A stretch of DNA of 64,000 bases from Roridomyces roridus (Eukaryota; Basidiomycota; Agaricomycetes; Agaricales; Mycenaceae), in contig JARKIF010000001.1 of assembly GCA_029378245.1 (NCBI GenBank), positions 248,001 to 312,000 on the forward strand, given 5' to 3'. Positions 16,389 through 40,536 of this stretch are shown one piece after another; positions within the stretch are counted from its first letter, which is position 1, and each line of letters opens with the position of its first letter. A program made the position numbers and the translations under genes. The notes beneath the pieces were generated by a model. That model did not search any database. It saw only the letters and a list, made by a program, of their open reading frames with translations, and was not told the origin of the DNA.

Positions 16389-17747
16389 GTCATCGACGCT
16401 GGTTCAGCGTCATTCAAAGCTGGATGTGAGTTAGCGAATGTGAAATCTTCAGAGCACTCATTCTCTACAGTCGCTGGTGAAAAGGCACCCCAGGCGATTT
16501 TCCCGTGAGTATAGCATGCGTATACTCCACCGTTTTGGCATGCTCGGACAGCCCAGTGATAGGTCGCCCTCGTCATGGGGCACCTCGAATGGGACCGGGA
16601 TGGGGACCCCTGTGGTATTACTTCGGGTGGGATCGCTGTTTAGCTGCCAGCTTTGCCTTGAATTTCTTCCTAGCGACAAGGCTCTTGCCTTATCCCACGT
16701 CCTCACCATGAAATGCCCCCTCGAGGACGGTATCATCATCAACTGGGACGACATGGAGAAAGTCTGGTGGCACACATTCCACGATTTGCTCCATGTGGAG
16801 CTAGAGCACTCGGAGCATCCAATCCTCATCACCGAACCGCCTCTTAATCCCAAATCGCAACGCAAGCTCATGATGCAGATCTTCTTCGAGACCTTTGACG
16901 TCCCGGCGTTCTGCGTGATGAACGAAGCCGCCCTCTCGCTGTGTGCATCCGGCCGGACGACGGGGATCGTCGTGACTTCTGGCTACGGTGTATCTCACGC
17001 CGTTCCCATTTACGAGGGCTTTGCGCTCCCGCATGTTATTTCGAAGGTGGATATCGCTGGTCGGGCGCTGACTGAGGAACTGGGGAAGCTGTGCTCTCTC
17101 GAACGCGGGAAGCTGTACTCTGTCGAGCGGAGGATCGTCCAGGATATCAAGGAACGGCTGTGTTATGTCGCTCTGGATTTTGAGGAGGAAAGGATTGGGA
17201 CGAGTGAATATGCCCTTCCCGATGGGAAAGTACTCAGCGTCGGGAATGAGCGGTGGGTATCATCGAATGAATTGCTGCCCTCATTGACCGAGTCTCTAGC
17301 TTTCGTGTACCGGAGGCTCTATTCAAGCCATCTTTCATGGGGAGCGAATCATTGGGCATCCACGAGGCGACGTAAGTTAAAATTTTGTTCACTTGTCCCT
17401 GACGCAAATATTTCCTACCAGATACAACTCGATCCAGAAATGCGATGCAGATTTGCACAAAAACCTCTTCGGGAATGTCCTCCTTTCAGGTGGAAGCACC
17501 ATGTTCCCCGGTTTCGCGGAGAGAATGCAGAAGGAACTGAATCTACTCGCATCTCAAAATGTCAAGGTACGCAACTTGTTGTCCCGGTGGAACGAGAATG
17601 AATCAGAATTTGTAATAGGTCCAAGCTCCGCCCGAGCGACAGGATCTCGCCTGGATCGGCGGCTCTATTTGGGCGGCTCTGAGTACATTCCCACGGTTGT
17701 GTATTTCGAGGCAAGATTATGATGAGTATGTTTTTAGCGGCGACTAG
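16389..17747 (+). pseudogene. Tandem actin copy, decayed
   Basis: Exon-by-exon similarity to the preceding gene starts at VIDAGSASFKAG (16389-16425) and [11 protein letters not shown] (16471-16504). It continues with VIGRPRH, loses coherence where the DEAQSKRG region should be, then resumes at [20 protein letters not shown] and runs to [20 protein letters not shown]. The final exon reads [14 protein letters not shown] and ends early with YVFSGD-stop at 17747, without the KCF end. The phosphate-binding loop DSGDG has become TSGYG, removing both conserved aspartates; the first loop NGSGM is ASGA-like. It has no obvious first exon. Whether it is transcribed or a true pseudogene cannot be told from sequence, but it cannot be a normal ATP-hydrolysing actin. 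Confidence 0.8.
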
Positions 17748-18556
17748 GAGGTTACGGAGCCACGGTCTGTTGAGAGAGACTGGACTCTCTATTCACCGGA
17801 GATGCCACCGTGAAAAGTTGCTTAGGCACAGATGCTGTGCCCGCAATCATCCATCTCCGATCGCTAGAACTTGACTCCTCGTCGATTCGAGGCGGGGTGA
17901 AGAGCCTGGTATCGTCAGCCGGACATGATTTCTTTCCTGGCCAAGTCTGCGTGCTCGGCGGAGCATTCGCGCTTCAAGTGTTGTGGCATTCGGTGGTTTG
18001 TTCTTCTCCAAATCTTCGAATCTCTAGATCGGGTTCCAGATATCACCGTCCGGCTGGACATTGATTCTTCACGCGGCGATCCCGGTCTGTTTGTTGCGTT
18101 GAAGCGAGAGCAGGGAATTGTCCCGAATGTCCGACCATTAATATTCGATCTTGCGGGTGTGTATCTCGGCTGAAACAAGTGTTATCGTGGGAGAAAGAGT
18201 TGGATCAAATACCTGGACGTGACTTGGACGCGATCTGATTTGATCATGATCCATTGAAACACTGCGTCACGCCACCGTTTCCTCTTGACCACCATCTTGC
18301 ATAATCATACATTCACGCCTGCCTAAGACCTTCGTCGATGCTCTCAATAACTTCCGTTTTTCTCGTCTCGTCTATGAGAGGAGCTCTGGAGGCCAAAGCG
18401 GGAATATTAATCGGGAAAGCTACCGCTCGGGACTGCAACCGTGTTGTAATTATGATTATTTCCCCGACCTTCTACCTGATTCTATTTACTCAGCTATTAC
18501 TAAGTCTCTCTTCACTATAGTAGAATATTCTAGATATTATCCATGGTATATAAGCC
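17748..18556. other. No gene seen, AT-rich toward the transposon
   Basis: Short ORFs on both strands with no recognisable motif. The right part is AT-rich (TTACTAAGTCTCTCTTCACTATAG and similar) and contains the insertion site of the large transposon, whose target duplication starts at 18557. Confidence 0.45.
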
Positions 18557-18562
18557 TGTAGT

Positions 18563-18660
18563 TATGACGGTCACTTTGTATATTAAATTTACACACACAC
18601 ACGGACATAAATTCACACACACACACACCTGGATTTTCACACACAAACACCTAAAGCGGA
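18563..18660 (+). repeat. Left TIR and subterminal CA repeats
   Basis: TIR TATGACGGTCACTTTGTA (18563-18580) is followed by AT-rich sequence. Runs of ACACAC and the word TTCACACACA or TTTTCACACAC then repeat at 18591-18650. The same words occur in inverted orientation near the right end, which is typical of transposase-binding subterminal repeats. Confidence 0.8.
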
Positions 18661-18988
18661 TAGTTACCTTATTTGGAAGGCCCGGAGTTTATCCGCCCGC
18701 CTCCCGCCATCATCTCTGCCGCCATCATTTCCATGATCAGAGTCCCCGACAACCTGCATACCTTGGAGCGTGAGGCGTATGCAAGAGGATGATTCAGACT
18801 AAAGAAGGCCTTGAGGACCCTCTATATTTCATACACTAAATTACTAGCCTCTCAGTGGGCAACATCAACGCTTACTACTGCAAAACTCAGGACTTGAAAT
18901 TGGAACTAGTCAGTCACAACTCGGCTGAATTGTAAACAAACATACTTGGACTTTAACCACCACCATCGCTTTTTTCCCCTCCCCAAAA

Positions 18989-20848
18989 ATGTCTGACACT
19001 ACACGCTGCCGCGGCCTGGACTCTGACGGCCAGCAATGCATCTGCCTGCGCGCCGACACCACCTATGTGGATGAAAACAACAAAACCAAATGTACCGACT
19101 GCGACCATATTGCCAGTGCTCACCCGCAGGCCAAGGCCAATTTCAGCACTCTCATCAGGGGCTTCCGGGATGCTGCCAAGCTTCCCAACCCCTCTTCTAC
19201 CCCTCTCAAGGCTTCCCAGGCGGACGCTGAGGCTGAAACAGCAGCTGGGCTCCGTGGAGGCTCTGTCAACAAAAAGCGCAAGAAGGATTCCCAAGCTACC
19301 TCGGGAGAGTCCTCATCCAAGAAGCCTAACCCCCCGATTCAAAAGGTGACTGACTCTCTTCCCTTTGAAAGATCTTCTATTTATCCATTTTCCTCAGACG
19401 CCTGCTGCACCTCCCCCTACCTCATCCCAGACCAAGGTCAAATATTGCCACGCTTTCCTACTTCCCTACGGTCTTGTGCGTCTTTTGCTTCTCCCCCAAT
19501 TCTTTATCTGACTTCAATATCTAGACAGCGGATGGTGCACTTTCCAAGGGCACCCTTCCTGATGCTGCGGAAAGACAAAAGCTGGAGTCTGCCAAACTCA
19601 TTGTCCATCGCAGCACTGCAAACCCGTTCATCATCAATACTACTTGGAACAACGATTCTGCCAAGGCCGCAGTGGCCGACCTCTTCCCTCAAGCCCACCG
19701 TTACATGGAACACCATTTCCCCTGGGAGATGCAGCCTTGGTCGGTGGTGACTGCTTTCAAGAGTGTCCTTACTCTGCGGGGGGAGCAATTTCCTGACGGG
19801 GAAGACCTTGGTCGCCATGTCTTGGAGCCTTTTAAAGGCCGTGTCATACAAGACCGCACTCTATACCTTGGTGAGTCATCCATCTCCTAGTAGCTTCCAT
19901 ACTCTAATGTTTTTTACACAGTTTCCAAGGAAAGAATACCACGGGCTCACTGGAAGGACTGGGATACGTACATGCTGGATAGCGATTTGGGAAGTGACAT
20001 TGACACCGTTCCCTCTGAAGACATCAAACACACTCCCGTCAAAGCCCGCCCTGGTATTTACTCCTACCACCACATTTCGCCTTCTGATTTGTTGTCCAGC
20101 GTACAAAGGCAAGGGCAAAGGGAAAGCCAATGACCCTATCAAAGAGGAGACTGAGGACATCCCCGTCAAGGAAGAAAAGTCTTTCACCTCTTGTGCGTCT
20201 TTTTTATCTTTCTCCAATTCACATCCATTCATCGGCATTGCATTAGTGGATTATTCAGAGTCTGACATGAGGAAGGCTGCCAGAATCAGAACCCGCCTTT
20301 CTAGTGGTGTGTGACATTCACATATTCTAAATGCATTGCTCATTCCAGTCTTAGGCGCTATTGAGAAACAGACATTTTCCATCCCTGGTAGCAGCCCCGA
20401 ACCCGAGGCTTCCGGTAGCCAGGAGGTCACGGTCATCAGCGACGACGAGGATCTTCCCCCTCTTTTCCTTGCACAGAACTCCCCTTCCCCTCCCTCCCCT
20501 TCCCCTCCCTCCCCTTCTCCTCCGCCGTTCATGACCCAGACTCCCCATGCCTCCACCTTTGGTGGCATGAGCACGGCGCCCTCTTTTACAGGGGGACTGG
20601 CGCCTCCCGCCACTGCTGGGCCTGCTACTCCCGCCAGCTTGACCGCAGCTCCCGTGGCCCCTCTTCCCCCTGCACCCGCTCCAGCAGTCCCATTGGCAGC
20701 TCTATTCCCCACCATTCCTAGCTTTGCCGCTGCTGGTGTGGTTATCCCCCAAATGCCAGACAATGGAGGGGAGACGCCGGCTCCTCCTTCTGCCGGCTCC
20801 TCAGCTACCCATCGTTTCCGCAGAATGGGCAGGGGCCGCCATGAGTAA
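18989..20848 (+). CDS. Transposon-borne Cys-cluster protein, Pro-rich tail
   Basis: First gene of the large transposon. About seven exons can be joined with good splice sites. The first (18989 to about 19345) encodes a compact Cys/His cluster near the N-terminus: TTRCRG, QQCICLR, then KCTDCDHIASAHP. It looks like a zinc-binding domain. A lysine-rich segment (NKKRKKD) follows as a probable nuclear signal. The middle exon encodes a globular region with HRYMEHHFPWEMQPWSVV. The last exon (about 20348-20848) has TVISDDEDLPP, which resembles a SUMO-interaction motif, and then a low-complexity Pro/Ala/Ser tail ending RFRRMGRGRHE. I do not know the family by name. Small Cys-cluster proteins often accompany agaric DNA transposons. 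A DNA- or SUMO-binding role is inference. Confidence 0.6.
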
Positions 20849-21054
20849 AGCTTAAAACATATACCGCATTATCTATTTATTGAATCTTGAATAACCCCTA
20901 CTCCTTGATTACGCTTCCTTCTACTTATTTATTTATTGACCTCTGTCCCTAGGCTACCTTCTCTCCCCTACTTTACATTCGGCCTTCTCTTCTCTCTTCT
21001 TACTTGCCGTACCATTAATAAAACCTAATTTTTCATTATACCAAGTGTTCTAAG

Positions 21055-24000
21055 CTAATGCCTGACAAAATGAGACGCCCATCCATTGAAGTCATCAACC
21101 CACTGATCCCCGTGGCGGTCAGAATGAAGGACCAGTGTCCCCCTCATCCCCGTGAAATGGAGATTAAAGTGAGTGAGGTCACAAGAAGGAAAGACCAAGC
21201 CGTCCCCCATTTTCAAATCCAAGCACAAACCCGCCTCGTACAGACAGAGGCCGCCACCCTGGAAGTTCCCAAAGGGAATGACGAAACAGAGGATCTTGTC
21301 CCCGACGTCACGGTGCGCCCAGGTACAAGCACGTAGATTGATGACGAAGCCACCAAAGGGGAAGCAAGGAGAGGATGCGCCCAAAGGCAGGTGCTCAACA
21401 AATATGCTGAGCTCATCGTATTCCGCGGGCAGGTACTGCTTGAGCTACAGAGAAGTTATAAAGGAAAGGAACCTTGAGTAAACACGCACCGCTACTCTGA
21501 GAATCTCGAAAAAGTCCATATACGCTTCAACAAGCAAAGGATACTCGTTTGGATTCTTCATGTCTTTGGAACGCCTAGCATTACGCTGCTCAAAATTGAC
21601 ACGCCCTTGTCCCTTGCGAAGGGTGTCAGGATGAGCATCCGTTGGGGCTCCAGTACCCTATTTCAGTAACGTCAAACTCTGAGGTGCGGCAGAGCTGAAT
21701 GATTACCTTTTCCCCGTAACGCGCATACCAGGAGTAATGGCAGGCCAGATATCGAAAAAACCTTTCTCTTGAATCGGCGTCTGTGAATTCACCAGGCATG
21801 CAGATATGAATACGAAGAATAGCATCCTCCAAGAGTTTGCGGTATTCCGGTGGGACACTGAATACCAGGGCGAGAAGCTTGGCATTGGCATCCTCAATAC
21901 GGAGAGCTTGCCTGAGGAGCAGATTTAGAGGGACTTGAGCTACAAGACAAGATACATACCCTTCCAGGATGTCGGTGTTTATTCTGACGTACTGCCCTAA
22001 TTTACATGTTCCTCCAAAGTGCAGATCTTGCAGCTACAGTAAGCGTCAGCTAGACAACCTTCGCTTTCAAGAAAGAACACACCTTCTTTTCCAAATCATC
22101 CAGACTAGAAGCAACTTCCCCCCTTTCCGCTTTCAAACGCTCCTCTTCAGTAAATTCGTCCCGGTTCTCCTCGTTCACAGGGCTGGGGCTCTTTTGTAAC
22201 CGTAAAGGTGTTCTTATGGTACGTAGAGGCCCCAAGGAAGGGCTGGGAAGCACCAGCCATGCGGGTACTGAGGAAGACGTCCATGCATCAGATCTCCGAG
22301 CAAGTCTGGGATAGCTGCATGCACTTCTTCAGAAACAAGGACGCTTGCAAGTCAAAGAAGTTCCTTACTTGGTTTCAACGCTATCAAAAACCTTGTCGCT
22401 GGTCTCCCATTCACTGAATCCAAAGGAAATAACCTCCGGCGGCGCTCCTTCCATTTTGGGAACATTGCGGTGGAGGCGGAGCGTAGAAAGATATCCGCCA
22501 GACAAATGCCGCATATGGAATAGAGGTACCATTAACTGCTGTACCCCGGCGTCCCATTGTCCCTCTGAGAAGGATAAACATGAGGCGGAAGAGTGGCAGG
22601 AGCAGGTTGGCTCACCTTTCACCCGTCTCAAAGCATTGGCAAGAACAAGAAGCTGCTCAGGCCCCGCGTGTGTAAGGAAATCCGTTCTTAGGTTGAGCAC
22701 GGCAAGGATGGGAAGGAGGTACAAAGAGCCTCGAGAGACATCAGCTTCTAATCATACATAACGGCAACGAGATTGACCTGCGGCAGAAAGAATCACCAGC
22801 CTCTTGCCGAAATGTACCCAGTCCTGGAATGTTCTAGCAGCAACACCGGGCGGCGCATATTTGGTGGCCAAAACTTCATAAGAACTGTGTTTCTTGGGCA
22901 GATTCTTGAGTTGATATTCCGCACGCTCACTACAGAATTGATCAAGTGACTATCAAGGAAAGATATTCCAGCCATACCTATCGCAGTTCAGAGCCAGCTG
23001 AATATAATCCAGCATAAGATGGAGCTCTTTGAAATGAATGTCGGCCTGGTAGGTATGAATTCTAGCTGCCACACTGGCGGTGTCGAAGGAAGTCGTTTGA
23101 AAGACAGAGGAATCCGGCGGTCCTTGAAGAAGCTTGTCTAGACGCTCACGGTGGGCGGAGGTAAAGATGGCCAGTAACTTGGCCAAGAGAATCCCCGGTT
23201 CCTGCATAACTGGCACAACCACATCATCCACTCGCCAAGCTTCTTTGCCTCCCTTTTTACTGTGTTTGCTGCCTCCCTGCGCTCCCCCACGCCCACGCCC
23301 ACGCCCTCCAAGCCCACGTCGACCACGGCCCATTCCGGATGAGTTATCTTCCTCCTCCTCATCCCCTTGCTGCGCGCCCCCAACGGCTGGCATATACCCA
23401 ATATCCGCTGCTTGTCCGCGGCGTGGAGCGTCTCCACGTCGCCCCTTGCATTTCTTGGTTGGTTGGGCATTGACTGGGCCACCTGCCGCACCAGCTCCAT
23501 GACCACCACCAGCACCACCAGCACCCCCACGAATAACCATCCTAATTCCCGTCCATTCGTCATCCTTCTGCTGTCGCTCCCTCTCCCTCCGCACCCAATC
23601 CATTGTTGGGAGCGGCCACAATCGGCGTGAAGGCGTGTCTTCAGCGTCTTCAGGGTCTTCAGCGTCTTCATCTTCATCTCCCTGCCAATAATCATCGTCA
23701 TCTGCGCCTTCTCCAAATCCCGCCGCAGTAGAGCTTCTTTTCTGGGGAAGCGTTGACACGGGAGATCCAGGTACGATCAACGGCGACAAGAAACGTGCTA
23801 GTAGATGTTGAGTAAGATGGTCTTCAGAGAGACAATGTGGATACATACGGGGTGTATCTCCAGGTGGTGCTGCAAGAGTATCTGTGGCCATTTTGAGCAG
23901 CTGTGGACTGGATGAGGTCGGCAGGTACACACTTTGAGTATCCAGCGAACCCTGTGGTGAGGGCGGCGTTAAAGGCGCGTGACGCGGTGCGGGCAACGTG

Positions 24001-24390
24001 GGAAGAGGAGTGAACAACTCTCGGGGCGGTGTGGAGAGCGTGTCTGCATGGCCAAGGTCAGGGAAGATTAAAAAGAAACGACAAGCATATACCCCGAGAG
24101 GCCCAACTATTCTCAATTGGTACGCTGCGTGCCCTCTCTAAGACACGGCCACGTCGAACAGACGGCACCGGAGCGCTCTGCAAGGTTGATAGCGACGTGG
24201 TGGAAGGGATTTCGGTGGAGGGATGGCGCCTAGTAGCAGCCACATCGTTCCGCGGGACAGATGCAGGCACAGTAAAGACTGCACTGAGCCTGTTGCCAAT
24301 GGAGGCGAAGGAAGGGGGTAACGCGTCGCCCTGGGAAGCAACATATGCGGTGAAGAGGTCGGCAAGGTCGTCTGGAACAATGAAGGGCAT
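21055..24390 (-). CDS. TET/JBP-like 2-oxoglutarate/Fe(II) dioxygenase
   Basis: Multi-exon minus-strand gene with start MPFIVPDDLADLFTAY at 24390. Intron 24044-24092 is clear; several others are inferred. The N-terminal half is low-complexity: acidic (DEDEDAEDPEDAED), Gly-rich with an RGG-like block (GRGRRGLGGRGRGRGG). The last exon carries the catalytic core: INLRACTWAHRDVGDK (the HxD iron motif), FGNFQGGGLCLYEAGL, then PSCDLTHFNLHFTGMRG (third iron ligand His and the Arg that binds 2-oxoglutarate) and HSDRHGDQWVDD. The pattern fits the TET/JBP family, which oxidises 5-methylcytosine or thymine in DNA and is expanded in Agaricomycetes beside KDZ transposons. It lies back-to-back with the Cys-cluster gene's 3' end. 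A role in modifying host or element DNA is inference. Confidence 0.68.
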
Positions 24391-24870
24391 AGTCTGTAGA
24401 CAGCGGTAGCCGGAAGAGCTTGATGGACAAGGACAGCAGGGAGCTGCAGATTCTCGCGGGCGTCCGCGAGTTTTTGACGCGTGGGGTCACAGACAGCCCT
24501 GGGTGTGACTCAGTAAACAAGCAGGCAAGGAGGAGGGAGAGGAGAACGCGTTTGTTGATTGTTGATGTCCCAAAAGGGAAACCCCGTCTTTACTTCCGTC
24601 TCTCCTCCTTCACCCTCTCGGTTTGGTCTCCTCCTGCTGCCCTCAACCTCTCTGCTGTTCATCCACATGCCCAAAACGATCCAGAACGTCGCTTACCAAG
24701 GCCCACCAGCCCCAAGAACCTGCATTGCCCGGTGCACCAAATTCAGAGCAAAACCTTCGGCAATGATTTGGAACTTGAATGGCTGTAGTCAAGCGGACGA
24801 AGAAGACGAAATGGATACACAACGCTGTTCCTTGGGTGGGGAATTCCTCTAGTGAAGGAGAGAGGAGGAG

Positions 24871-26147
24871 ATGAATGTGGTGCGGCAGACAAAGAGGTGT
24901 GTGTCCTATGATCTTTTTTTTTTTTCGGATTCTCTTGTGACTGGACCCCAGTCTCCACCTCCCAATGGATATTGGGCACTCTCAATCGACTCCCTTGGGG
25001 CGCGCTGGCCGGCCCTGCCCTGTATGTGCCTTGGTAGGATACCAGACTACATGCATCTTACACAAAGTAAGACTCCTGGCTGCACCTTTGTCTTGTCTCG
25101 TCTAACTGGGCGTTTTACAGCCTCTGCACGTTTCCATACGCCCAAATATAACGCTCCGATGCTCTCGTTCATCATCTCACGCCCACGCCACTTTGGAAAC
25201 GAAGATCTTACTTCAGTTGTGCTGTATGACAAAAGTGAGTATTGTACCTCCAATTCTCATCCATTCAAGCTGAAATACATACTCTCCCCTTCCTCAGCAT
25301 ACTCCCCAACGCCCTCTTAAGACCTCTCGCGCTGGCCATATCTTGAAGTCTCGGCGCCGGCGCTGCAGTGTATCACATGACCAAGAGGCAGACTTTGCAC
25401 AAAATTCAGTTGTTCTTCGCCATGCCTCAACCAATTCGGGTGAGTCTTGCACCAACCTGTACCTTGGCATAACCCTCATGCATGCATACAGTTAGTTCTG
25501 CAGTCCGCAGTCGGCGTCGTCGTCCCACAGCCACACGTCACCAGTGTTTATGCTGTCGGACAAAAGTAAGTACTGCACGTCCAATTCTCATTCATTCGAG
25601 CTGAAATGTGTACTCTCCCCTTCCTCAGCTTACTCCCCAACGCCCTCCCAAGACCGCTCGGGCCGGCAAGGTCTTGAGGTCTCGGCGTCGGCGCTACAGC
25701 CCATCACATGACCAAGAATCAGATTTCTGCACAAAAGTCAGTCGGTCTTCACCGTGCCTCAACCAATTCATGTGAGTCTTGCTACCACATGTACTCTGGA
25801 ATAACCCTGATGCATGCATACAGTTCGTTTGGGTCACCCGTGCGTTTCGCTTTTCTTCGGCGATGCTTTTGATGGAAGACACAGAACAGACATTCGTCAA
25901 AGTCAGTGTTTTTAATTCCAATTCTCTTCATCTGTCCTCACCACGGCATTTTTCCTATTCCTGAGTGATCTCTCAACGACTACCTAAGGCCATAATCCGC
26001 CGTACCGCGGTCCTTGGTCGGCGTCGTCTTTCCACAGCCACATGTCCAGCAGCGGCGCTTGGAAAAGTAAGTCAACTCTTACAATCCTGCATAGATATCC
26101 CTAATCCTGGCATAGATCTGGACACCCGCATATTCATTCCTGCTTGA
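24871..26147 (+). CDS. Possible basic protein with duplicated exons
   Basis: Low-confidence gene between the dioxygenase and the transposase. Two 330-bp direct repeats (starting near 25228 and 25558) each contain a splice-like donor, an intron ending CCTCAG and an exon in the same open frame. Unit 1 reads HTPQRPLKTSRAGHILKSRR and unit 2 LTPQRPPKTARAGKVLRSRR, both followed by SHDQE. A linking exon gives AVRSRRRRPTATRHQC. The product would be very basic, with several RSRRRR nuclear-signal-like blocks. Coordinates are outer limits; the first exon and the 3' end are uncertain. I know no family for it. Conservation of the frame, rather than only of the DNA, between the two units favours a real gene. 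Confidence 0.35.
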
Positions 26148-26213
26148 TAAAATACAATCTCCAACTTCGGTACATGTACATACACCGAGAAGAATAGCAT
26201 TACTACATTACAA

Positions 26214-28255
26214 TCAATCTGAATCACCGTCCGCATCTGAAACGTCTTCCTCTTCCAGCTCGTGTAGAATCCTCGACATGAAGTCCAGAGCCTGAGCCCA
26301 GCGCGCAGCCCGAGGATACCATATCTGCCTAGGGAGAATAATTGAAAGCTCCTTCCCTTGGGTACCAGGACGGAATACTTCAATCTCAGGGTAGTCCTCT
26401 TCCTCCCACTCTTCCTCCAAGATGCCGTAGTCCTCGGGGAGGACGTCGGGCTGCAACTGGAGGGCTTCAAGCTGCTGCACAAATAGATCTTGGAGCTCTG
26501 CATCTTTGAACGGTGAACGGTGGCGGGGAACTTTGACAGGCTCATGGCGAATGTTCTTTTGCAGATCGGCTCCTATCTGATTCTCCAGCTCCTCCTCATC
26601 AGAGACATCCACCGCGCCTACGTCCTCCTCTTCAACTTCTTCCGGGTCATTGCCAGCACCAGTCTGATTCCGTGGACGGCGCAGACGGGGACCATGCACC
26701 CCGTAGTAACGGTTGATGGCGTCTGGATGAATTCCATCCAACGGGTCTTCACGGTAGACGCCCTCCGTGAGCTGTCCAAGGAAGCGGAGGTCCTGTACTT
26801 ACAAGTTAGATGGAGACAAGCCGGAGCATGATAGAATTACCGCTGGGCTCTGGTTCTTGGTCTGGACGCCTTCAATGGGATGCAGATTCCAGTCGTCTTG
26901 AAAGTCTCTGCAGTCCTGATTGATCTCCTCAAGAAAGAGAAGGTGGAGGAGCCATAGATGACTTGGGTTCTTGCGGTCAAGGCAGTGAAGCCTTCCAAGA
27001 CGTGTGAAGAAAGCTCTCCATGCACGGGCGAACTGAGTGCCGACTTCAACCCAAAGACGCTCTATGCGGGTGTTGCGGGTAGACCTAGGTGTGAATGAGA
27101 CGCAAAAGCAGAATTAAAAAGGTACCTGAGCACGCACGAGCCCCACATAAAGGAAGCCCTTCCTGGTCCACGATGCATGACCATCCAGATGGCGACCTTG
27201 GTGTTTTCCCCGCCTCTATCCCCCCGCATACGGGACGGCGTGCCGTACCTCTGGATTGCCTCCATGAAAACATCCAGCACGGTGGCAGCTTTGTTGTTAT
27301 TGCTCGCACGTAGGCCAGTAATCTTGAGGAAGGGCTGTTAGCAAAGCTCAGATGAAAGGTATCACATACGCACTGTACGACAAAACCCATCCACAAATCC
27401 ATGGATGACTATTCCCCACCAGATGAGCTTATGATGTCCGTCCCCATGCCACAAGTAGTTTGGCCTTGGAACATGGTAGCGGCGGCGTCGCAGAGCAACA
27501 CGGCGGCGCAGGGCTTGCCCAAGGGCGTCAACCCTTCTGAGAGAATGGCGGGCACGTTCTCTCTGAATGCGGAGCCCATGCCTCCTAAAATGGCCACGCA
27601 GATAACGTAGACCGGAAGTGGGCTTCCTCGACTTGTACTCCCGCGTGAGGGTGTCCAAATCCTCATCGTGCAGGTCATCAAAGCGCTTGGCTAGACCCAG
27701 CTCCCGGAGGCGCTTACGCAAAGTATGGCGATGAATCTTCAAAGCAGAAGCCAGTGCGCCCAGCTTGATATCCCTGTTGGCGGCTACAGCCTCCCTGAGG
27801 TATTCGGAGGAAATCTCCTTCCGCGGCCGTCCTCTGCTGCCTGTAGATTCAGCCGTCACGGGTTCCAGAAGTACAATATTGTCCCTTTCTCTGCAAGGAA
27901 TGGTTGTCAATGAGTGGAATCAAAAGAGGAAAAAGATAGCGTACACTCCTTCTGCTGCAAGCGCACCAACCTGGAGCTCGTAGACTAGCGGTCCCAGTAT
28001 ATTGGCGCAGTCTTCTACCCACTGCCTTGGTACCTCCCCCTCCAGTCCCTCCAGAATGGGAACCATATTGTCGACAATGTTGGAAGCCAAGAGTTTGTAG
28101 CGCAAAGAATCGTTCTCCTCTTGGCGCAAGGCTTGGAAAGAGTGAGTGTAGGCATTGTTGAGGGCCTGGCGACCAGCCACGGCGTTGGCACTCCACGCAT
28201 TGTGCTCCGCGGGAGGTAGAGGAGGAAGTGCTTGAGGGAAATCAAAAGCTTCCAT
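26214..28255 (-). CDS. IS3EU-like DDE transposase (integrase fold)
   Basis: Five exons on the minus strand, starting MEAFDFPQALPPLP at 28255. After a helical N-terminus comes a helix-turn-helix region (LGALASALKIHRHTLRKRLR) and a second one (GLRYLRGHFRRHGLRIQRER), as in IS3-type integrases. The catalytic core has Asp in NYLWHGDGHHKLIWWG, Asp in RMRGDRGGEN and Glu in STRNTRIERLWVEV, a complete DDE triad. A 41-nt or so intron interrupts the core just before the Glu motif, joining GS to STRN. The C-terminal exon holds GVYREDPLDGIHPDAI and a strongly acidic tail. Total length is roughly 600 aa. No inactivating change is visible, so the element may be autonomous. This gene defines the transposon's superfamily. 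Confidence 0.85.
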
Positions 28256-28313
28256 GGTCGTCAGGAGTAAAATGTAATAAGTGATCGGCGTGCCTTTTCT
28301 TCATCCCACCTCC

Positions 28314-29346
28314 ATGCCGAGACATCCAAAGTTTTATATGAGAGACGGGACTCTCGTCTTGAAGGTAAATCCATGGTCAAAGAGGAATATGTCCCTGCTA
28401 ACTCTCCTCAGGCTGGAGACGGCTCGGAAGTGCTTTACAGAGTCTACAGAGCCGTTCTGGAAAATCAGAGCGTATTCTTTGAGGGATTGCTTAGCTTGCC
28501 CAATTCCAAGGTGGATTCTCTTGCTGGGGATGGAAAGAAATGGCTGGAGGAGGTGAGAGCGGCAGGGGTGGATGGGACCACGGATGAGACTGCACTGGTT
28601 CTTCCTGCTCAGCTGGCTACAAAAGAGCTTGACGCTTTCTTTGATTTAATGTTCTATGGATCGTGAGTGGCAAGCCTTGGGACTCTGGTGCAACTGACTC
28701 ACGGAATACTAGGTGGATGGATGCGCAACCCGCTACTGTGGATGCCTGTGCTATTCTCAAGATAAGCCACTTTCTGGTTGTCGACAGAGGCATCCGCTTC
28801 GCCAAACGCCATCTGGACAAAGAAGATGCTCTGCCTGCAGTTCAGCGTTTGAGCCTCGGATTCAGCTACGGCTTCGGGGATTGGGTTAGGATGGCATTCG
28901 ATGAGTTGATGTCTGTCCCAATCAATGAACTGACGCCGGAGGAAGAGGAGACAATGGGGTGGAAAGCCTACCGGGCTTTGGCCAGGGCTCAAGCGGAAGT
29001 TCTTGATGTGCGTCTCCGCCTTGCAGTCGCACGCATCCCCGTGGTAAACCACGTCAACTGGTGCTACAACCATACCTGGTGTCAGGCTGAGTGGACCAAG
29101 ATGTGGACTTCCATGTCTGGGGTGCTGGGCGCCTTGATTAAAGAGGATGCTCCTGGTGCGCAAATATTGGAGAACCTAGCAACCTACGACAGGGGCGGCA
29201 CCACCGAGGAATGTTTTCGTCGCACTTGCGAGGGCCTCCAGGACACGCCCGAGAAGGTCAGTATCTTGAAGGAGGAAGAGGGTGTAGTGGACAGGGAGGT
29301 CGAGAAGCTGCTCCAGGCGCTAGGAATACCTTCCAAGTGGACTTAG
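28314..29346 (+). CDS. Transposon-borne BTB/POZ-domain protein, about 310 aa
   Basis: Three exons: 28314-28364 (MPRHPKFYMRDGTLVLK), 28412-28662 and 28713-29346, with introns of 47 and 50 nt. The first two exons give a BTB/POZ fold: FYMRDGTLVLK, then a variable loop, LYRVYRAVLENQSVFFEGLL, TALVLPAQLATKELDAFFDL and MFYGSW. This matches the many agaric BTB proteins that keep DG..VL, HR..L..S..F and F..alYd patterns. The C-terminal 200 residues are helical and Cys/Trp-rich (NHVNWCYNHTWCQAEW) and resemble the tail of the same family. BTB domains mediate dimerisation or recruit cullin-3. Its job in the element is unknown. The stop is 180 bp from the transposon's right end. Confidence 0.7.
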
Positions 29347-29365
29347 AAAGAAATAGAAATCCTCT

Positions 29366-29526
29366 TTGTGTGCGCAAATCAATTATTGTGTGTGAAAAAT
29401 ACAGAAATCTCTTTGAGTGTGTGAAAAGGTGCTTTGTGTGTGTGAGAGAGAAGGTTCGCTTTGTGTGTGAGAGAAAGTTTGCTTGTGTGTGTGTGCATTT
29501 ATTAAATGTACAAAGCGACCGTCATA
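29366..29526 (-). repeat. Right TIR and subterminal TG repeats
   Basis: Reading inward on the minus strand the end is TATGACGGTCGCTTTGTA, one change from the left TIR over 18 bases. At least five TGTGTGAGA/TGTGTGAAA words lie between 29366 and 29495, mirroring the CA repeats at the left end. Confidence 0.8.
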
Positions 29527-29532
29527 TGTAGT

Positions 29533-30710
29533 TGTACCACTGAATGCATTATTCTTCTCTTGTTCACACTCATCGAACATCATCCAACAATAAACCTCAA
29601 GATCATCCAAGTGATTCGGATACCGAGTGTGCACTCAAAACGGCCACGGACCACGGACGGACAACTCCGCCTCCACTGGTGGCTTCCATCTGCTCATCTA
29701 CGATCTGCCAAATACACTACTTATCATGAAGTGAGTCAAGTGACAGTGAAGACCAACGTTGCGGCAACTTGAAGCATGTAAATTCTCATGATCAGGCCTC
29801 ATGCATCAAGGACCGGTATAAGTAGATGACGTGGCGGAAACAACTGACCGGTTGGGACAGCTCTATTTCAGATGAGGGGTTTCCGAAGCCAACAGGGCTC
29901 GGGCCTATTCTTTCCTGCGCAGCCACGGCCCCGGCTTCACACCCAGCGAGAGTCCGACCGCAGCAAGAGATTACTTATTCTACGGCTTCTACAACTCTCT
30001 CTTCTCCGTTATCGGCGCCCCCGAGCTCATGGGTGTGCTGGCCACGGATCTCATTAATATTTCATCATAGACCGGCGACAAACAGGATCTGCTATTTAGA
30101 CAGACACCGGAACGATCTGTCTGCAGCTGCCAGCCAATGGCTGGGGCCTGTCGTAAGTTGCGCTTCTTCCGATGGACCGTGACAGACGACGACTCTAACA
30201 GGTCGAGCAAATCTTCTTTTCCTAACCCTGACAGATCGAGGAACGAGATCCATGTCATAGTGTCTGTCTACTGCATGACCCTTGATCACAGCCAAATCAT
30301 GTTTCTGACCGATGCCTTGCCTCCGAGGCATCCCGGAAGGCAAGGTGGTCAAAGCAGGAGGGAGAGTTGAAAGAGCCGTCGTCGTAAGTGACTCGGATTC
30401 CTCTGACGCTGCGATCTGAAGCACGATGTTCGCGGACGGGGTCCGGTACAGGTTTCAGCCGAAACATTCTCTCAAGGTCCGATTTTGAACCAGCTTCCTT
30501 TTTCCACTCCATCTCGAGCTGTTCTTCACTTCATCTTGATTCTGTCCCTAGGCTATCTTCGTGCCCCTCAAGTACGATCTTGGTTTATAAGGCAAGGGCG
30601 ATGCACACTACCAATTTGCGCCTGCTAGCTACTGCCAACGCCGGCCCCAGTACGTTGTGCTACGTCCACCGGACTTGTTCAAACTCGTTCCTGTCCCAGA
30701 AACCGTTCTC
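29533..30710. other. No gene seen
   Basis: About 1.2 kb right of the transposon with only short overlapping ORFs lacking any family signature. The last 100 bp form the 5' region of the membrane-protein gene. Confidence 0.4.
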
Positions 30711-32753
30711 ATGTCCACCATTTCTCCCGCCACCACCGCCGCTGGGGAAGCGGCGCTATTCCAGCTAATCGCGGACTCGCAGACGACGAACTACTTGGCT
30801 GGTGAGCTCTCTCGTGGATCTAATGTATCGAAACTCAGGTGCTCTGAAGCGGCGGCTATTACTTTGGTCATGTCAGCCGTCTGCAATTCTGCTCTGCAGC
30901 GCGTGGCTGAACTCGAATCACAGTCTTGAGCATATCTCTGCGTTCAAAGAGGAGGTTCGTGGTCTTCTGATCCTTCGAAAAACAGCTGACGATGAGAGGC
31001 AGATCGAATACGTCTGGAAAAGTCGACTCAGTCTCTGGAGCGTCCTCTATGTAAGCAAACTCTAAGGCTCTCGTTCAATGCTGATTTTGTCTTAGGTGTG
31101 GGTGAGTCCTCTCAGACTCGTCTGTGACCGCACGGGAAGAATGACTCATTGACACAGACTCGCTATGCAACACTCACTTTATTGGTGTGCGTCAAAGAAG
31201 CTTGTTGTGCACTCCTACTCCTGAAGACCTTGCTTCCAGGGTCGATGCTATCTGTAAGTTCATCTGCCAGGATCTCCAAACTCACGAGATGAGTCCCTTC
31301 CCAGTTATGTTCCGACCGATGAGCACCTCCAAAGTTGGTGGCTTTCTCTCTCTTGCCGGCAAAATATTGAACACATTCAAATTTACCTTTCTCCGTCGTC
31401 TCAGTTGTGAGTGTCTGCATTCGGGATTTGGGTGACTGGATACCTGCTGACAAGTTTGTAATGCAGATGCCAAACTCTTCTCCTGGTACAGTCATTCTCA
31501 GGACAGTGAAAAGAGTTGTCTCTCAATCGGTACTCCGCAGTCTGAAGTGTTTTCGTCTACGATGATGATAATCAGCGTCGATTGCGTTCTCGTCCTCAGG
31601 TAACTATTACCCAGGTATTCTGGTTTTGATTCCATGTGAAGTGCTTGCTAGGGTTTGGTTGCTACTTGGCAGAGCAAAGAAGTTTCCGTTTATCATGATT
31701 CCTTTGCTCATAGGCAGGTCATGTTCTATAATATATCTATCTGTATTTACTCAGTGCTGCAGTCGAGGGGCTGGTCATGTCGGCCTTTTCCTATTTGAAT
31801 CTTCTGGAAAAACTGACCAAGTTGACGTCAGGGTCACCTTTGGTATCCTTACAATTCTCCCTATAAAGGGTATACAGGCCGAAACATCGCAGTTCAATCT
31901 GACTCACAACGGAGGTAGATTTTGTAGACGTCGGGCAAGTTCGCTTGAATTTCAACCTCCCATCCGACTGACAGCAATACGGACAGGCCAATTCTAAACG
32001 GCTGCTATGCATTCGGTGTGCATTCACGTTCAAGTTTGAAGTAACCTTCCTAAAGACTAATGCATCGCACAGAGGTCCCTCGTGTGATGACCTTCTACCC
32101 CGTCGCCCCTTTCTTGATGGCCCTGCTCATGTTTTCCATCACTGTGTACAAATGCGGACAGCACATACAGGTTAGTCTCTTACAAACAGACACTGTATAG
32201 CATTAATTGGTACCTCGTTAGTATATCATGCGGGTGAGAAGCAACACGGAACCGATGTCCATGATTACCCTGTTTCTGAGAGACGGTGTCTTTTTGTTCT
32301 TGTGGCTTGTGGGTAAGTTGCCACAATTCTTCACGTCTGCGGAGTTACCTAACTGCGAATGACCCTTGCGCAAAGTGGTTGCCACGGCGGAAATTATCAT
32401 TTGGCGCAAGGACCGCCCAACCCTGGCTGAGATCCCCATCATGTGCGTGTCTGAAAGCTTTAATTCCATCCTCTAAATCTCATCCAATCACACAGTCCTG
32501 CCACAGCGTCAGCTTTTTCCCGCATTGAACTTGATCCCCGTTTGAACACTTGCACAGAATACCAGCCGTGCTCGCGGCACGCATCCTACTCAACATAAAA
32601 AATCTGGCCTATCACACTGATTCAACCGTAGCGGGTACCTCCATTGAGTTCACGACGGTACTATCGCAGTCACTTCCGCCCAGCCGTGGGATTCGTGTTC
32701 CGTGGTACCTTCGAACCGGGGAGGTCAACGATATCCGGAGCGAGGAAATGTGA
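30711..32753 (+). CDS. DUF6533-type integral membrane protein
   Basis: Many small exons of a fungal multi-pass membrane protein. The start MSTISPATTAAGEAALFQLI (30711) and the exon with IEYVWKSRLSLWSVLYV match the N-terminal DUF6533 pattern (a membrane helix, then EV..IW...W...K.LYL..RY). Later hydrophobic exons include VPRVMTFYPVAPFLMALLMF with SITVYKCGQHIQ, MSMITLFLRDGVFLFLWLVV, VVATAEIIIWRKDRP and the conserved C-terminal AARILLNIKNLAYHTDST. The stop is at 32753. These proteins are expanded in mushrooms and have seven predicted helices; their function is unknown. Exon boundaries between 31070 and 32050 are unclear, and I could not rule out a lesion there. Confidence 0.55.
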
Positions 32754-32922
32754 TTCGAGGCGGCGTTACAGAGGAAAGGATGTCCGATGTGTACCTTCAC
32801 ACGCAAATATACATGTATGTATGTACTCGCAAAACGTTGACTTGCAAAGTGATGTTGGCCCCGATTTCTGTCTTTTTCTCGGAAGCTTCAAAGACCTCCC
32901 AGGCGGGAACGCTTTCAAAAAT

Positions 32923-33110
32923 TCAGTGCTCGTTCGTTACTGAGTAGACGGACCTGGACGTCGTGGCCAGATTTTCGCAATGCGATGGCATCGCAGCAGT
33001 CAGTCCGCCGAGACCTGCACCGACGATTGAGACTTGCAAAAGACGCGGAGAAGCAACTTCGCTGGACGGCAGTAGCACTGTAGCATAGTCTATGGCGCCA
33101 TTCAAGTACC
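32923..33110 (-). pseudogene. FAD monooxygenase fragment (exon 1 and start of intron 1)
   Basis: The minus strand carries VSIVGAGLGGLTAA, the FAD-binding GxGxxG motif, and is very close at DNA level to 55205-55345 of the intact monooxygenase. The match runs through the exon end into the first bases of its intron (GTCCGTCTACTCAGTAAC against GTCCGTCAACTCAGCAAC). A 4-base insertion after the motif shifts the frame. Nothing of the remaining gene is present, so this is a DNA-level duplicated scrap. Confidence 0.8.
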
Positions 33111-33542
33111 TTCCAACCCATGGTAAGATGCTACGCTTCAGCGGTTTTAAGAGGCGTCAAAAGATCTTGGCCGAGACTAGTTCGAAGTCTGAGTTGATTG
33201 GGTCCACGATCGAAGCTGGAAGAACAGATTTGAGGTGGGCCGCGCACAAGTCGCGCAGGTCAGGTGAATTCGGGCCAGATTGTGATTCATGCAGAGTTGA
33301 ACGTTGAGTGCCCTAGTAGAAAAACTCGTCAAGTTGAAATACACGTACAAGTCGACGTATTGAACCTTGACCAGTCTGGCGTCGGATATGGGACCATTCA
33401 CTCGTAAGTTCAAGGAAAACAAACAACGAGGCGATGGTACCGCTCGGTCCCAAGACTCCACTCGCCCTCACTCACAGTTGCTTTGCCGATTGCGACGCCA
33501 TCAAGGTTGGAAAGTTGGCTTGAATTTGATATCATTTTGCAA
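33111..33542. other. No gene seen
   Basis: Intergenic sequence between the monooxygenase scrap and the convergent F-box gene end. Short ORFs only. Confidence 0.4.
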
Positions 33543-35337
33543 CTACACTCGCTGCACAGAAACCCTCGTCACCACCTCCTTCAACGACCCCAGCTCCGCC
33601 CCACTCAAAGAACACCTAATCAATCTCACCTCCTCAATACCCACATTCAACCTCTTCCGCTGCGCCAACCAATCAAGTATCGCCTCCATCTCCTGCTCGA
33701 ATACAATGTCGTGAAAATGAATCTTCCTGAGCGCGGGGAAGTACACCCTAGACACCGCATCGAACCTCGTCGGATCGCCTGCGGCCAGAAGAGGGTCCGA
33801 GTCGAGCTGCTGCGTGAACGGCTCGACGTGTCTGTGGAGTATGAGTGTCCGCACAGTCGCGTGATGGATAATCGGCGGCGGGAACCTCCACAGGGATGCA
33901 CAGTTGATGGTCAAGGTGGTGAGCGAATCGAGAGACATCACGAGTGCCGCGGCGCTCAGGATGTTCTCCCTACACGGCTGCATGGGAGATAAATCGTAAT
34001 CAAAGCGGGCTGTGTAACGAGAGAGCCTCTCGCATGTGCGATCAAATAAACCCACTTCCAGCGTACCCTCCTTGGTTGTCGGAGGGAGGTCGGTGAGCGT
34101 GACGGCGCAAATTTGGAATTGGTCGGCACGGACCCGCTGCTCTTCGAGCGCACGCCAGGTGTGCTTGATATCGCCAGCGTACGGCACGTGAACGGTGATG
34201 CGACATTTTGGGAGGATGAGGTTCCGCAGGAACCAGTAGATGGGCCAGTTGCTCGAGTTGAGCTCGAGCGTTTCCAAGTCGAGTCGAACAGGCATTTCCA
34301 AAGGTTTTCCAAAGAAAGCCAGAGAGGTCTCCGTCATGCACCAGGACAGCGCACGAAGACGCGGCATTCGGGTGGCTAGGAAGGTGAAGAGGTCACACCC
34401 CGTGGGGAGCTGGGTGACCTTGATGAGTTCGAGCGATACAATGTTGTTCCACAGGGGCGAGTCGGGATGAATTTGACAAGACCGAAGTGAGAGGTGGCGA
34501 AGCGCAGGAGCTTCACCGCCGAACAACGAGGCGGGTGCTATAGAATTGACCCGCCCGAAGCTCCAAAAATAAAAAGCTTCAAGGACCGGCGCCGGCTTGA
34601 AAAGCGAAGGCGGGAGCATAGAGTCGAACATGGGCAAAGTGAGATGCAGCTCACGAATTCTGTGTACCTGCCCCAGAACTTGATGGCGGGCAGCGACCGT
34701 TTTCTTCTCCCCCGAAGCCATATCCACGCCGACCGTGAGGGGTGCATTTCGAGACCGCTCCAACATCTCGAGGGCCCAACGAGGACTAGAAAGGACGATG
34801 CACGACCAGAACGCCGCGCTCGCCAACGCAACGTGCCGCCATCGGCGGCATACATGGGTGATCTTGAGGACAGGGATGAATCTCCGCGTCCGAAATTTCG
34901 GCTCGTCATCGTCAATCGAGCGGCACAGCTCCAGAATCACAGCGAGGAGCTCGGGAGGTAGGCGGGAGACGACGGCCAGGCTGTTCCTCCGCGCGCAGAG
35001 GGCCTGTTGGAGTATCGATAGCTCGAAAGACGGGAATGAATCCAAATCTTTCCCAGACACGACTTCCCGTGCGAGCTCCTCCGCGGTGGGTGCAGAGTCA
35101 GAGCCGAGCTTGGTCGGGCGACTGCGGAAGAGTTTCAAGGCTTGCAGGACGGGTGACGTCGTGCTAGCCTGCGCGATGTCGTCCAGCGCAAGGTCGATGT
35201 CCCGGATGAGTTGCAGTCTCGTGTCGTGTGCACTGAAAGCGGAGACGCTCTCGGTATCTGTGAGCAGGACTTGCAGAGAGGCCTGGATCGTGAATTTGGT
35301 GAGATTTTGGGGCAGGGAAAGCTAGAACGCGCACCAT
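33543..35337 (-). CDS. F-box/LRR-like protein, about 580 aa
   Basis: One long minus-strand frame (stop at 33543) encodes an F-box near residue 110: SRLPPELLAVILELC followed by VCRRWRHVALASAAFWSCIVL. The rest is leucine-rich with irregular repeats (LRHLSLRSCQIH, LRALSWCMTETSL, LETLELNSSNW), as in the large agaric F-box family. F-box proteins recruit substrates to SCF ubiquitin ligases. The frame is open upstream of the first in-frame Leu through ASLQVLLTDTESVSAFSAHD. A 52-nt intron (35334-35283) can join this to an ATG at 35337, so I extend the gene there. That tiny first exon is inference; the main exon is secure. Confidence 0.78.
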
Positions 35338-38168: not shown

Positions 38169-40026
38169 TTATAACTCATACACCCTCATCTCCTCCTGCG
38201 CCATCGCATTCTCCCTTTCGATAATCGCAACATGCCCCGCCGACCTCGGCGTGATCTGAATCCTAAACGGCCTCGGCATGCTGTTAAATCCATCCGTATA
38301 CGCCATCGTGTCGACGTCGATTTCGTTCCCGTGCTCGTCGAGCGCTTTGCCGAGGTTGAAGGCCCAGAGGATGCGTGCGATGCTGTGGACTTGTTTAGAA
38401 AAATATTCATGGATAGATAGAATGACTCTGCGCACTTGATGTAGATGCTGTTCACCCCGAGGAACTGCCCAGGGCAGACGCGCCGTCCATAACCAAAGGC
38501 CGAGTGCTGCCATGGACCGGGGTAGTCGCGTTTCGTCATGAACCTAAGTCGCTATATTCAGTCTGAATGAAATCCAAGAACCAGCGCTACGCACCGTTCA
38601 GGATCAAACCGATGTGGATCAGGAAAATCCTTCGGGTTCAAATGAATGCCCCACAAATTCGCGATAATCGTGCTCCCTTTGGGGATGAACATCCCCTCAT
38701 AAGTGAAATCCTCCGTACTCGCATGCGACGTTCCACCAAGTACAGCAACAGGGCGCCACCTCAGCGTCTCGTTCACCACCGCGCGGATGTACGGCAACGA
38801 ATCAGAGTCTTCGAATGTGGGCATCCGGTCTGGACCTACGACTGCGTCCAATTCCGCCTGTGCCTTCGGGATGAACGAAGATCCGAAAGCGGCACAGGCG
38901 AGCATGAATGACGCCAAGGTCCCAGCTGTGGTCTCCACACCCGCGCCAAAGGGTGTCCCGCATGCATAGGCCATCTCGAGCTCGGACATGCCGTGCTTTT
39001 CTCGGTCTTCGAGTAGTTGACGGCAGAATGACGGTTGGGCGCGGCCGGAATCCAGTTTGGATTTTACTTCCCTGACGAGGCGGGTGAGGTATTCCTTGTC
39101 GCGTTCGCGCTGTGCGAGGGCTTCGGTTCGCCAGGGAGTCAGGAAATTCGGAAGGTAGAGTAATGCGGGGACACTCTCCACGAGGTATTTTCCTGGGATA
39201 CTTGAAGAGGTTGGAACACGTCTAATAAAAGAAACGGCAACTCACTTGATGCTCATTAAATAATTCTGAGTCTCTCGATTGAGACAAACGACTTCATCAT
39301 TGTAGATATCATGCACTCTTCTGCCGTAGGTGATGACGACGGCGACGGAGGTGGCGTATCGTTCGAGGTGCTCGCGGTAGTCTAGCGGCGTTTTGATGAG
39401 TTCGGACATGAGTTGCTTGGATTCGAGGCTCTGGATTGGCTTGTACGTGTCCGATGCCTTCTGCATGAAAGAACCTGATTTCAAGTCAATCCCCGGTCAT
39501 ACAGGAGCTGCTGGCATACCGTGAAGGACCTTGGTTTCATTCAGTCATTATTTCCAGTCGAATACAAGCACTCACCCGACGCCATCGTCTCCAGAACGGA
39601 CCATTGCTCGCCATTAGCCCACGCAAATTGTTGCTCATGATTTCTTGACCCATGATAAACCGAGGTCGGGAGCTGGTCACGGGAGACTTCTTCTCAAGAA
39701 TATCCCAAGCGGCCTGGGCCGACCCGATGACAATGGTAGGCGTCCGACCCAGCAGCAGATACACCACCGGCCCATACTGCTCGTTAAGCTCCAAGAACCA
39801 CCGCCACGGTTTCTCTCGAGGAACCTGATTTCGATTACCGACGAGCCAGCTGGTGGGCGCTGATTCGCCGAATGAGCGAGTGAGTCGAGTCTTCTTCGTC
39901 TGAGAACCAGTACGTACCAGGACCGGGAGGTAGATCCTTGGCCTTCTTGAGCGGGCGAAGGACGAGGATGGCGACGAGCACAGCGGTGAGAGAAGCAGCT
40001 GCGATCCTGAGCTCGCGGGAAGACAT
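38169..40026 (-). CDS. Cytochrome P450 monooxygenase
   Basis: Minus-strand gene of several exons, start MSSRELRIAAASLTAVLVAI (40026), which forms an N-terminal membrane anchor, then DLPPGPG, the proline-rich hinge. Middle exons carry WFLELNEQYGPVVYLLLGR and the I-helix AGVETTAGT. The ExxR motif is in VVNETLRWRPVAV, and the haem loop FGYGRRVCPG gives the invariant cysteine. The C-terminus is RPFRIQITPRSAG and the gene ends at 38169. Length is about 500 aa, usual for microsomal P450s. The type resembles the agaric CYP family often labelled O-methylsterigmatocystin oxidoreductase; substrate is unknown. All catalytic motifs are intact. Confidence 0.88.
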
Positions 40027-40536
40027 GACGGGGGAAGAGAAGAGTGTGTGATCATTCCGTTACTTGTACTTCCCGGCTCGCACACATGACCCACGATTGT
40101 GTAAGATGCTTCTATGCGCGTCTGGAAAGGGAAGTATCTCCTCGGGACTGCGGCTGGCTGTTCGCATCTCCGTTGTGGATGATGGTGGTGGTTCAAGAGA
40201 AAGGTACGGAAATGATCCCACGCTCGGCTGCTCCATTCTTCATGTTGATCCACGATTGGGAAGTACTTCCTCCCCCATGGCTTCCACACCAAGAATCTCC
40301 TCCTGAACGGCCAAGTCAACGCGTCTTCGCAAAATTCCGGCACACGGCCTCCTTTTTACGTCCAAGGCCAGAGTTTATCGTCTCTGGTTCCTGCCCGGAT
40401 CCTTCGCTTGTCTGACAGGCCCACGATGCGAAAAGCTAGCCTGTCCCTCTCAGTCTGAGTAAATAATTAGCTTTTTTGCTCCTCTCCGTCTCCCACTCCC
40501 ACTCCCTGCCCTTGATCACGCACACCCACACTCGCA
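40027..40536. other. Intergenic, 5' region of the P450 gene
   Basis: No gene seen; likely upstream control region of the P450 (minus) and of whatever lies to the right. Confidence 0.4.

Follow-up and report, generated by a model that had tools for sequence, protein, structure and literature searches.

An IS3EU-type transposon with a TET/JBP-like dioxygenase gene and BTB and Cys-cluster partners in the mushroom Roridomyces roridus

Introduction

Does a mushroom transposon carry an enzyme that may help it to escape silencing by DNA methylation? The question is raised by an 11-kb element in the genome of Roridomyces roridus (Mycenaceae, Agaricales; 90.8 Mb in 501 contigs). The element lies in the window, the stretch of 64,000 nucleotides analysed here (C1:248001-312000; positions without a contig name are those of the window), where an earlier note had described an integrase-type DNA transposon with five genes, one of them for a dioxygenase resembling the TET/JBP enzymes. 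We give a probability of roughly 60% to the following reading as a whole: the element is a cut-and-paste transposon of the IS3EU type, in which a TET/JBP-like enzyme eases methylation-based silencing and to which a BTB and a Cys-cluster protein belong as partners.

Results

The insert spans exactly 18563-29526, or 10,964 bp, and is bounded by a 6-bp target site duplication (TSD), TGTAGT, at 18557-18562 and 29527-29532. These limits are exact because contig C190 holds the locus without the element and with one TGTAGT. When the two flanks are joined (500 + 500 bp, with a single TGTAGT), query bases 100-1000 align with C190:284213-285090 at 97%, and the sequence at that place is AAGCC-TGTAGT-TGTACC, without the insert. 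The comparison shows a past insertion of the 10,964-bp unit. C190, which at 280301-285090 is the same locus without the element, would be either an allele or a recent duplicate of it: the 3,001 bases of window 30600-33600 have a full-length match on C190 at 100% (rounded), and repeat matches in two pairs are similarly spaced on C1 and C190 (16.6 and 18.1 kb; 24.5 and 26.9 kb).

The left end of the unit (18563-18584, plus strand) is formed by the terminal inverted repeat (TIR) TATGACGGTCACTTTGTATATT, followed by subterminal CA runs, and the right end (29505-29526, minus strand) by the TIR TATGACGGTCGCTTTGTACATT, preceded by subterminal TG runs; the runs are seen directly in the sequence. The TIR consensus is TATGACGGTC[A/G]CTTTGTA[T/C]ATT, and the element's termini are TATG..CATA. 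With up to 3 mismatches allowed, the 22-mer TIR occurs at 12 places in the genome, as against 1 for its reversed control; for the 10-mer TATGACGGTC alone, no enrichment is seen genome-wide (106 places versus 160 for its control). Pairs of this 10-mer on C159 and C235 were rejected as copies of the element, the sequence past the 10-mer being unrelated to the TIR. The earlier note had described matching TIRs with subterminal CA/TG repeats and a perfect TGTAGT duplication around a unit of this length, and had proposed a search for empty sites; the search was run, and the C190 site and the 22-mer counts bear the description out.

To which class does the unit belong? Splice models were made by hand for all four genes that we find in it. 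The transposase gene (26214-28255, minus strand) has five exons (27945-28255, 27374-27890, 27138-27322, 26841-27084 and 26214-26792) with an unbroken reading frame of 611 aa, of which the public model P0026 is a 341-aa fragment only. Pfam matches the product with rva_4 (E 2.4e-59) and rve (2.2e-8), and its DDE triad, D254, D311 and E346, is invariant in 27/27 aligned transposases (the window's and 26 picked from 114 matches). In a tree of the window sequence and 26 fungal homologues, rooted by choice on Ceratobasidium and built without reference IS3EU sequences, the window transposase groups with Mycena sanguinolenta and four of the eight Favolaschia sequences at a support of 1.0; the transposases of Favolaschia claudopus are 66-68% identical to it. 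The published marks of IS3EU are TA..TA ends and 6-bp TSDs (PMC10045372; this paper and PMC12730594 are cited from the parts of their text available to us), and the window element bears those of IS3EU/GingerRoot: an integrase-type DDE transposase, a 6-bp TSD and TA..TA termini. TSDs of 6 bp also flank two TIR-bounded relatives, on C268 and C449, with none on a third, on C68, and a sister family described below has TATGG at the single end seen. Judged by the rva_4 domain, the intact DDE triad, the TATG..CATA ends and the 6-bp TSD, the element is thus a cut-and-paste DNA transposon of the IS3EU type, and the intact-looking, IS3EU-like integrase of the earlier note stands.

The dioxygenase gene (21055-24390, minus strand) encodes 953 aa in 11 exons (24093-24390, 23849-24043, 22978-23797, 22778-22929, 22616-22747, 22369-22564, 22083-22314, 21960-22033, 21707-21911, 21490-21657 and 21055-21444). 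Its frame is unbroken, the public model P0001 nearly agrees with it (930 aa), and the protein is 100% identical, over the part searched, to FB45DRAFT_1075268 of R. roridus. Read from motifs and not from a structure, the catalytic exon (21055-21444, minus strand) holds an HxD..H metal triad (HxD in AHRD, the second metal His in THFN) and the 2-oxoglutarate-binding Arg (in RGTLVLHSD). HxD is present in 13 of the 18 family members, including the window's; the models of the other five do not have that stretch, and HxE is found in none. Tet_JBP matches 11/17 members at E <= 0.01 (best 1.6e-7). The nearest folds of the predicted model, which is poor, are CcTet and NgTET1, with CcTet as the best structural match at an identity of just 10-11% in the fold alignment, and a PDB sequence search with the dioxygenase returned low-complexity matches only. 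By its family matches and the nearest folds of that poor model, the dioxygenase appears to be TET/JBP-like, and its place inside an intact, IS3EU-like unit is as the earlier note had it. In Mycena galericulata, a single gene model (P0017) combines a relative with PF18721 and PF18718, which we take to be KDZ-linked Cys clusters; this gene model hints that the dioxygenase lineage may also occur near KDZ transposons in that species.

Could the enzyme write a mark? By an ungapped count from the HxD His, the window protein shows D and V in place of CcTet's Gly331 and Asp337, both of which are reported to matter for N6-methyladenine (6mA) and 5-methylcytosine (PMC12730594), and TET/JBP relatives including JBP and CMD1 have other products (PMC12730594). 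The dioxygenase might then produce a modified base (oxidised 6mA or a hypermodified pyrimidine, for instance), and this base would mark or protect the DNA of the element or its ends. However, these residue positions are offsets and not a structural alignment, and Pfam finds no further modifying enzyme (a glycosyltransferase, for example) among the four proteins. We consider a writing role improbable.

Head-to-head with the transposase gene lies a BTB/BACK-fold gene (28314-29346, plus strand; exons 28314-28364, 28412-28662 and 28713-29346), whose 311-aa splice model is in full agreement with the public model P0133. A fold test on the BTB/BACK protein returned the BTB fold; a PDB sequence search with the BTB alignment gave no match. 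At the other end of the unit, the Cys-cluster gene (18989-20848, plus strand) has seven exons (18989-19345, 19398-19436, 19525-19870, 19922-20053, 20100-20192, 20247-20306 and 20349-20848) and encodes 508 aa in an unbroken frame, with a Cys/His cluster at the N-terminus and no match to a Pfam domain. Its locus in the window is the only one found in the genome at E <= 0.001, and a 3' remnant lies tail-to-tail with the dioxygenase on C156 (tblastn E 0.004). The order along the unit is hence BTB (+), transposase (-), dioxygenase (-) and Cys protein (+), an order that seems, from the one Cys remnant on C156, to predate the split of the window and C156 families.

The fifth gene of the earlier note, for a basic repeat protein at about 24.4-26.1 kb, is not supported. 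Seven candidate open reading frames (ORFs) show no clear codon periodicity against L027, a diverged copy: differences at the three codon positions number 20/20/24 and 16/14/20 in the two repeat ORFs; in two further ORFs, with 10/5/15 and 28/23/35, the third position has a slight excess; and exon 5 of the transposase gives 10/5/57 in the same comparison. Two direct repeats of ~282 bp, 83% identical (25217-25829, plus strand), are read as non-coding instead. Four genes with unbroken frames are therefore supported, not five.

Is the dioxygenase beside the transposase by accident? The locus search scores the best candidates only, so that all counts are of loci found. The 89 transposase matches in the genome fall into 41 loci. 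Dioxygenase loci comprise that of the window, five more (on C156, C469, C13 and C68 and at C442:2157685-2159350) and one fragment (C442:241638), and 7/7 lie near a transposase of the closest families. The gene is downstream on the transposase strand in four of five sister copies; in the fifth, on C442, it is 10.5 kb off and reversed. In the window and C156 families alike, the dioxygenase goes together with the transposase, and the decayed copy L027 still has a dioxygenase fragment. Each of the 12 BTB loci found faces a transposase head-to-head at a distance of no more than about 1 kb, and this pairing is evidently old, since six of them have diverged to just 26-29% identity with the window BTB protein. 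Within the R. roridus genome, TET/JBP gene and transposase occur together repeatedly and not by accident.

The BTB families of fungal genomes are large, and the dioxygenase family occurs in many Mycena species; both genes might accordingly serve the host, with the transposon merely adjacent or domesticated. Yet the 12/12 BTB and 7/7 dioxygenase loci lie near transposases, and the sister contig C190 lacks the unit altogether. We regard a host service as highly improbable, and a host gene that merely lies beside the element is likewise disfavoured by the linkage of both genes to transposases. The earlier note had pointed to dioxygenases at transposon-free positions as the sign of an accidental capture or a host gene; none was found in R. 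roridus, where the gene was found only near such transposases.

A search with the TIRs (up to 3 mismatches) found no transposase-only copy within the same ends. It did find three TIR-bounded copies that hold none of the four genes: on C268 (4.5 kb, TSD CCCGAT), on C449 (14.9 kb, TSD GCTTCC) and on C68 (7.8 kb, no TSD), which look like non-autonomous relatives. Of the co-occurrence within common boundaries that the earlier note proposed to check, the repeated linkage of TET/JBP and BTB genes to the transposase holds, but the full set does not recur in these TIR-bounded copies. At C442:245097, a further match marks one end of a decayed copy in which pieces of transposase and dioxygenase remain. 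The gene-less copy on C449 (L023/L024) is ~7 kb longer than the C68 relative and has ORFs that, by eye, are RecQ-helicase-like.

There is also a sister family of five near-identical copies (C442:2168300, C68:1214694, C469:2171596, C156:13685 and C13:267570), with the left end TATGGTGTTC.. and an outer 373 bp that is 99-100% alike in all five. Seven other sites have this outer flank at 87-88%; what comes after it at those sites was not found beside the five copies. The right end was found neither by pattern nor in the C156 stretch. With shared outer flanks and no right TIR found, these copies cannot be taken as plain insertions. On C442, the sister transposase is followed downstream, at C442:2174100-2178300 (L074), by what by eye is a LINE: an ORF resembling a reverse transcriptase, at least 1,400 codons long.

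The transposase has a ratio of nonsynonymous to synonymous substitution rates (dN/dS) of 0.05 against C156 (dS 4.0, nearly saturated) and of 0.08 against L027. Between the window and C156 families, the proportions of nonsynonymous and synonymous differences (pN and pS) of the dioxygenase are 0.35 and 0.80, with synonymous sites saturated; the segments came from tblastn matches with introns unmasked, which raises pN. The BTB gene gives 0.33 and 0.81, again with saturated synonymous sites. The catalytic residues of the dioxygenase are retained in the C156 copy. The substitution patterns fit purifying selection.

For other species, sharing of contigs was compared among 18 dioxygenase matches, 33/35 BTB matches and 22/114 transposase matches, the last from Roridomyces, Favolaschia, M. 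sanguinolenta, M. vulgaris and M. alexandri. Among the matches compared, no contig outside R. roridus pairs a dioxygenase with a transposase; in M. sanguinolenta one dioxygenase is on the same contig as a BTB gene, and in Favolaschia 3/3 BTB matches are on a contig with a transposase match. Contig sharing is a weak indicator here because the shared contigs measure 1.75-5.05 Mb.

As to the surroundings, the insertion point is inside a dispersed repeat of ~180 bp (18441-18562 and 29533-29592), with 37 further matches listed, including 11 pairs at an LTR-like spacing of 4.4-4.6 kb. Next to the element, the stretch 30600-33600 resembles nine long sequences (1.4-2.2 kb, 69-86% identity) at C1:596-682 kb, with shorter relatives as far as 700 kb. 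Elsewhere in the window are polyketide synthase domains (59791-63866), an actin-family ORF (16444-17601), a P450 piece (39537-40355) and an F-box-like ORF (49036-50496).

Discussion

How might such a unit work? The DDE integrase-type transposase, to go by its family, would move the 11-kb unit and make the 6-bp target duplications. The dioxygenase, as a TET/JBP-like Fe(II)/2-oxoglutarate enzyme, most likely has as its substrates the methylated bases on the element or close to it, and their oxidation would loosen the methylation-based silencing of the transposase gene. Escape from such silencing is, in our judgement, the likeliest role of the dioxygenase cargo. More tentatively, the BTB protein may be a Cullin-3 adaptor directed against a host factor, and the Cys protein might conceivably bind DNA or assist the dioxygenase. 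A fuller version, which we think unlikely, would have a Mycenaceae lineage of IS3EU with a two-part kit against silencing, made up of a fourth TET/JBP type, HxD-bearing and with a long N-terminus, together with a BTB/BACK protein that brings in Cullin-3 for the breakdown of a host silencing factor.

Several points weigh against the escape from silencing or against the enzyme's assignment. The window dioxygenase scores 22 bits with Tet_JBP, below the Pfam cut-off of 34.9; its model is poor (pLDDT 53.5), and the plain Foldseek match to CcTet is non-significant (E 0.14). A genome-wide search for the Tet_JBP family found nothing, but its controls were equally silent, so that this result is uninformative. 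Exon 1 of the dioxygenase gives a dN/dS of 0.32 against L027, over 53 codons only. The three TIR-bounded relatives are without any of the four genes, and the five sister copies are not clean, given their shared outer flanks, the right TIR that was not found and a Cys gene on C156 that is a remnant. The dioxygenase is found in just 6/41 transposase-like loci (plus the fragment), and is hence dispensable for the wider transposase lineage. Finally, Favolaschia claudopus has related transposases and three BTB matches on transposase contigs but no dioxygenase match, which suggests that the dioxygenase is an optional aid and not part of the transposition machinery.

These last two points are also what would be seen if the dioxygenase had been picked up by chance, had no part in evading silencing and was kept for its place within a successful transposon, and TET/JBP genes are described as passively transferred between transposon superfamilies (PMC12730594). 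Against such a capture stand a pN far below pS since the window and C156 families split, catalytic residues that are retained in both, and the company of dioxygenase and transposase in both families and, with the dioxygenase as a fragment, in the decayed L027. Chance capture therefore appears doubtful to us, and we continue to prefer a dioxygenase that eases silencing.

That a transposon-borne TET helps escape from methylation has not been experimentally validated, according to PMC12730594. The present locus offers a test case, in that an intact element and its empty counterpart occur in the same assembly; to this are added a diverged sister family with selection-marked cargo and a BTB protein, present as a regular partner, with a host protein as its possible target.

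Comparison with known systems

The earlier note held the combination of a TET/JBP gene with an IS3EU-type transposase to be possibly undescribed. This is not so, because Kojima (2025; PMC12730594) describes TET+ IS3EU families from seven species of Pucciniales and a single one, of the PE type, from Tuber indicum, and proposes the same escape from silencing. In Agaricomycetes, the TET+ transposons of that paper are Kyakuja, Zisupton, EnSpm, Plavaka and Helitron2; its main text, as available, has no TET+ IS3EU in Agaricomycetes and no BTB gene. Our literature searches on IS3EU, TET/JBP and KDZ-dioxygenase transposons found no TET+ IS3EU in Agaricomycetes either, and those linking IS3EU with BTB found nothing relevant.

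Other known elements differ in part from that of the window. Among those with integrase-type DDE transposases, GingerRoot groups with IS3EU and has 6-bp TSDs, as the window element does, whereas Ginger1 and Ginger2 have TSDs of 4-5 bp (PMC10045372). The TET+ Kyakuja/Zisupton (KDZ) elements, of the AG type to which CcTet belongs, share with the window element an Agaricomycete host and a transposon-borne HxD TET/JBP enzyme, but their TSDs are of 7 or 8 bp (PMC12730594), a range outside which the 6 bp of the window element falls. The Tuber indicum family is alike in joining IS3EU with TET/JBP, but it resides in an ascomycete, and its PE-type enzyme has HxE in place of the HxD of the window family.

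The TET+ IS3EU of Pucciniales share with the window element the transposon type, 6-bp TSDs and TA..TA ends (PMC12730594). In all TET+ IS3EU families of that paper the TET gene lies between the transposase gene and an oppositely oriented third gene, as in the window element; this third gene is for an alpha-kinase there and for a Cys-cluster protein without a Pfam domain here. The ends differ as well (TAYGG..CCRTA with TIRs of more than 30 bp in Pucciniales, TATGACGG..CCGTCATA in the window), and the window element, unlike the Pucciniales layout, has a BTB gene on the other side of its transposase. What is new is the Agaricomycete host, a dioxygenase with HxD that is not of the PE type, and the partnership with BTB and Cys-cluster genes; the window element extends TET+ IS3EU to mushrooms.

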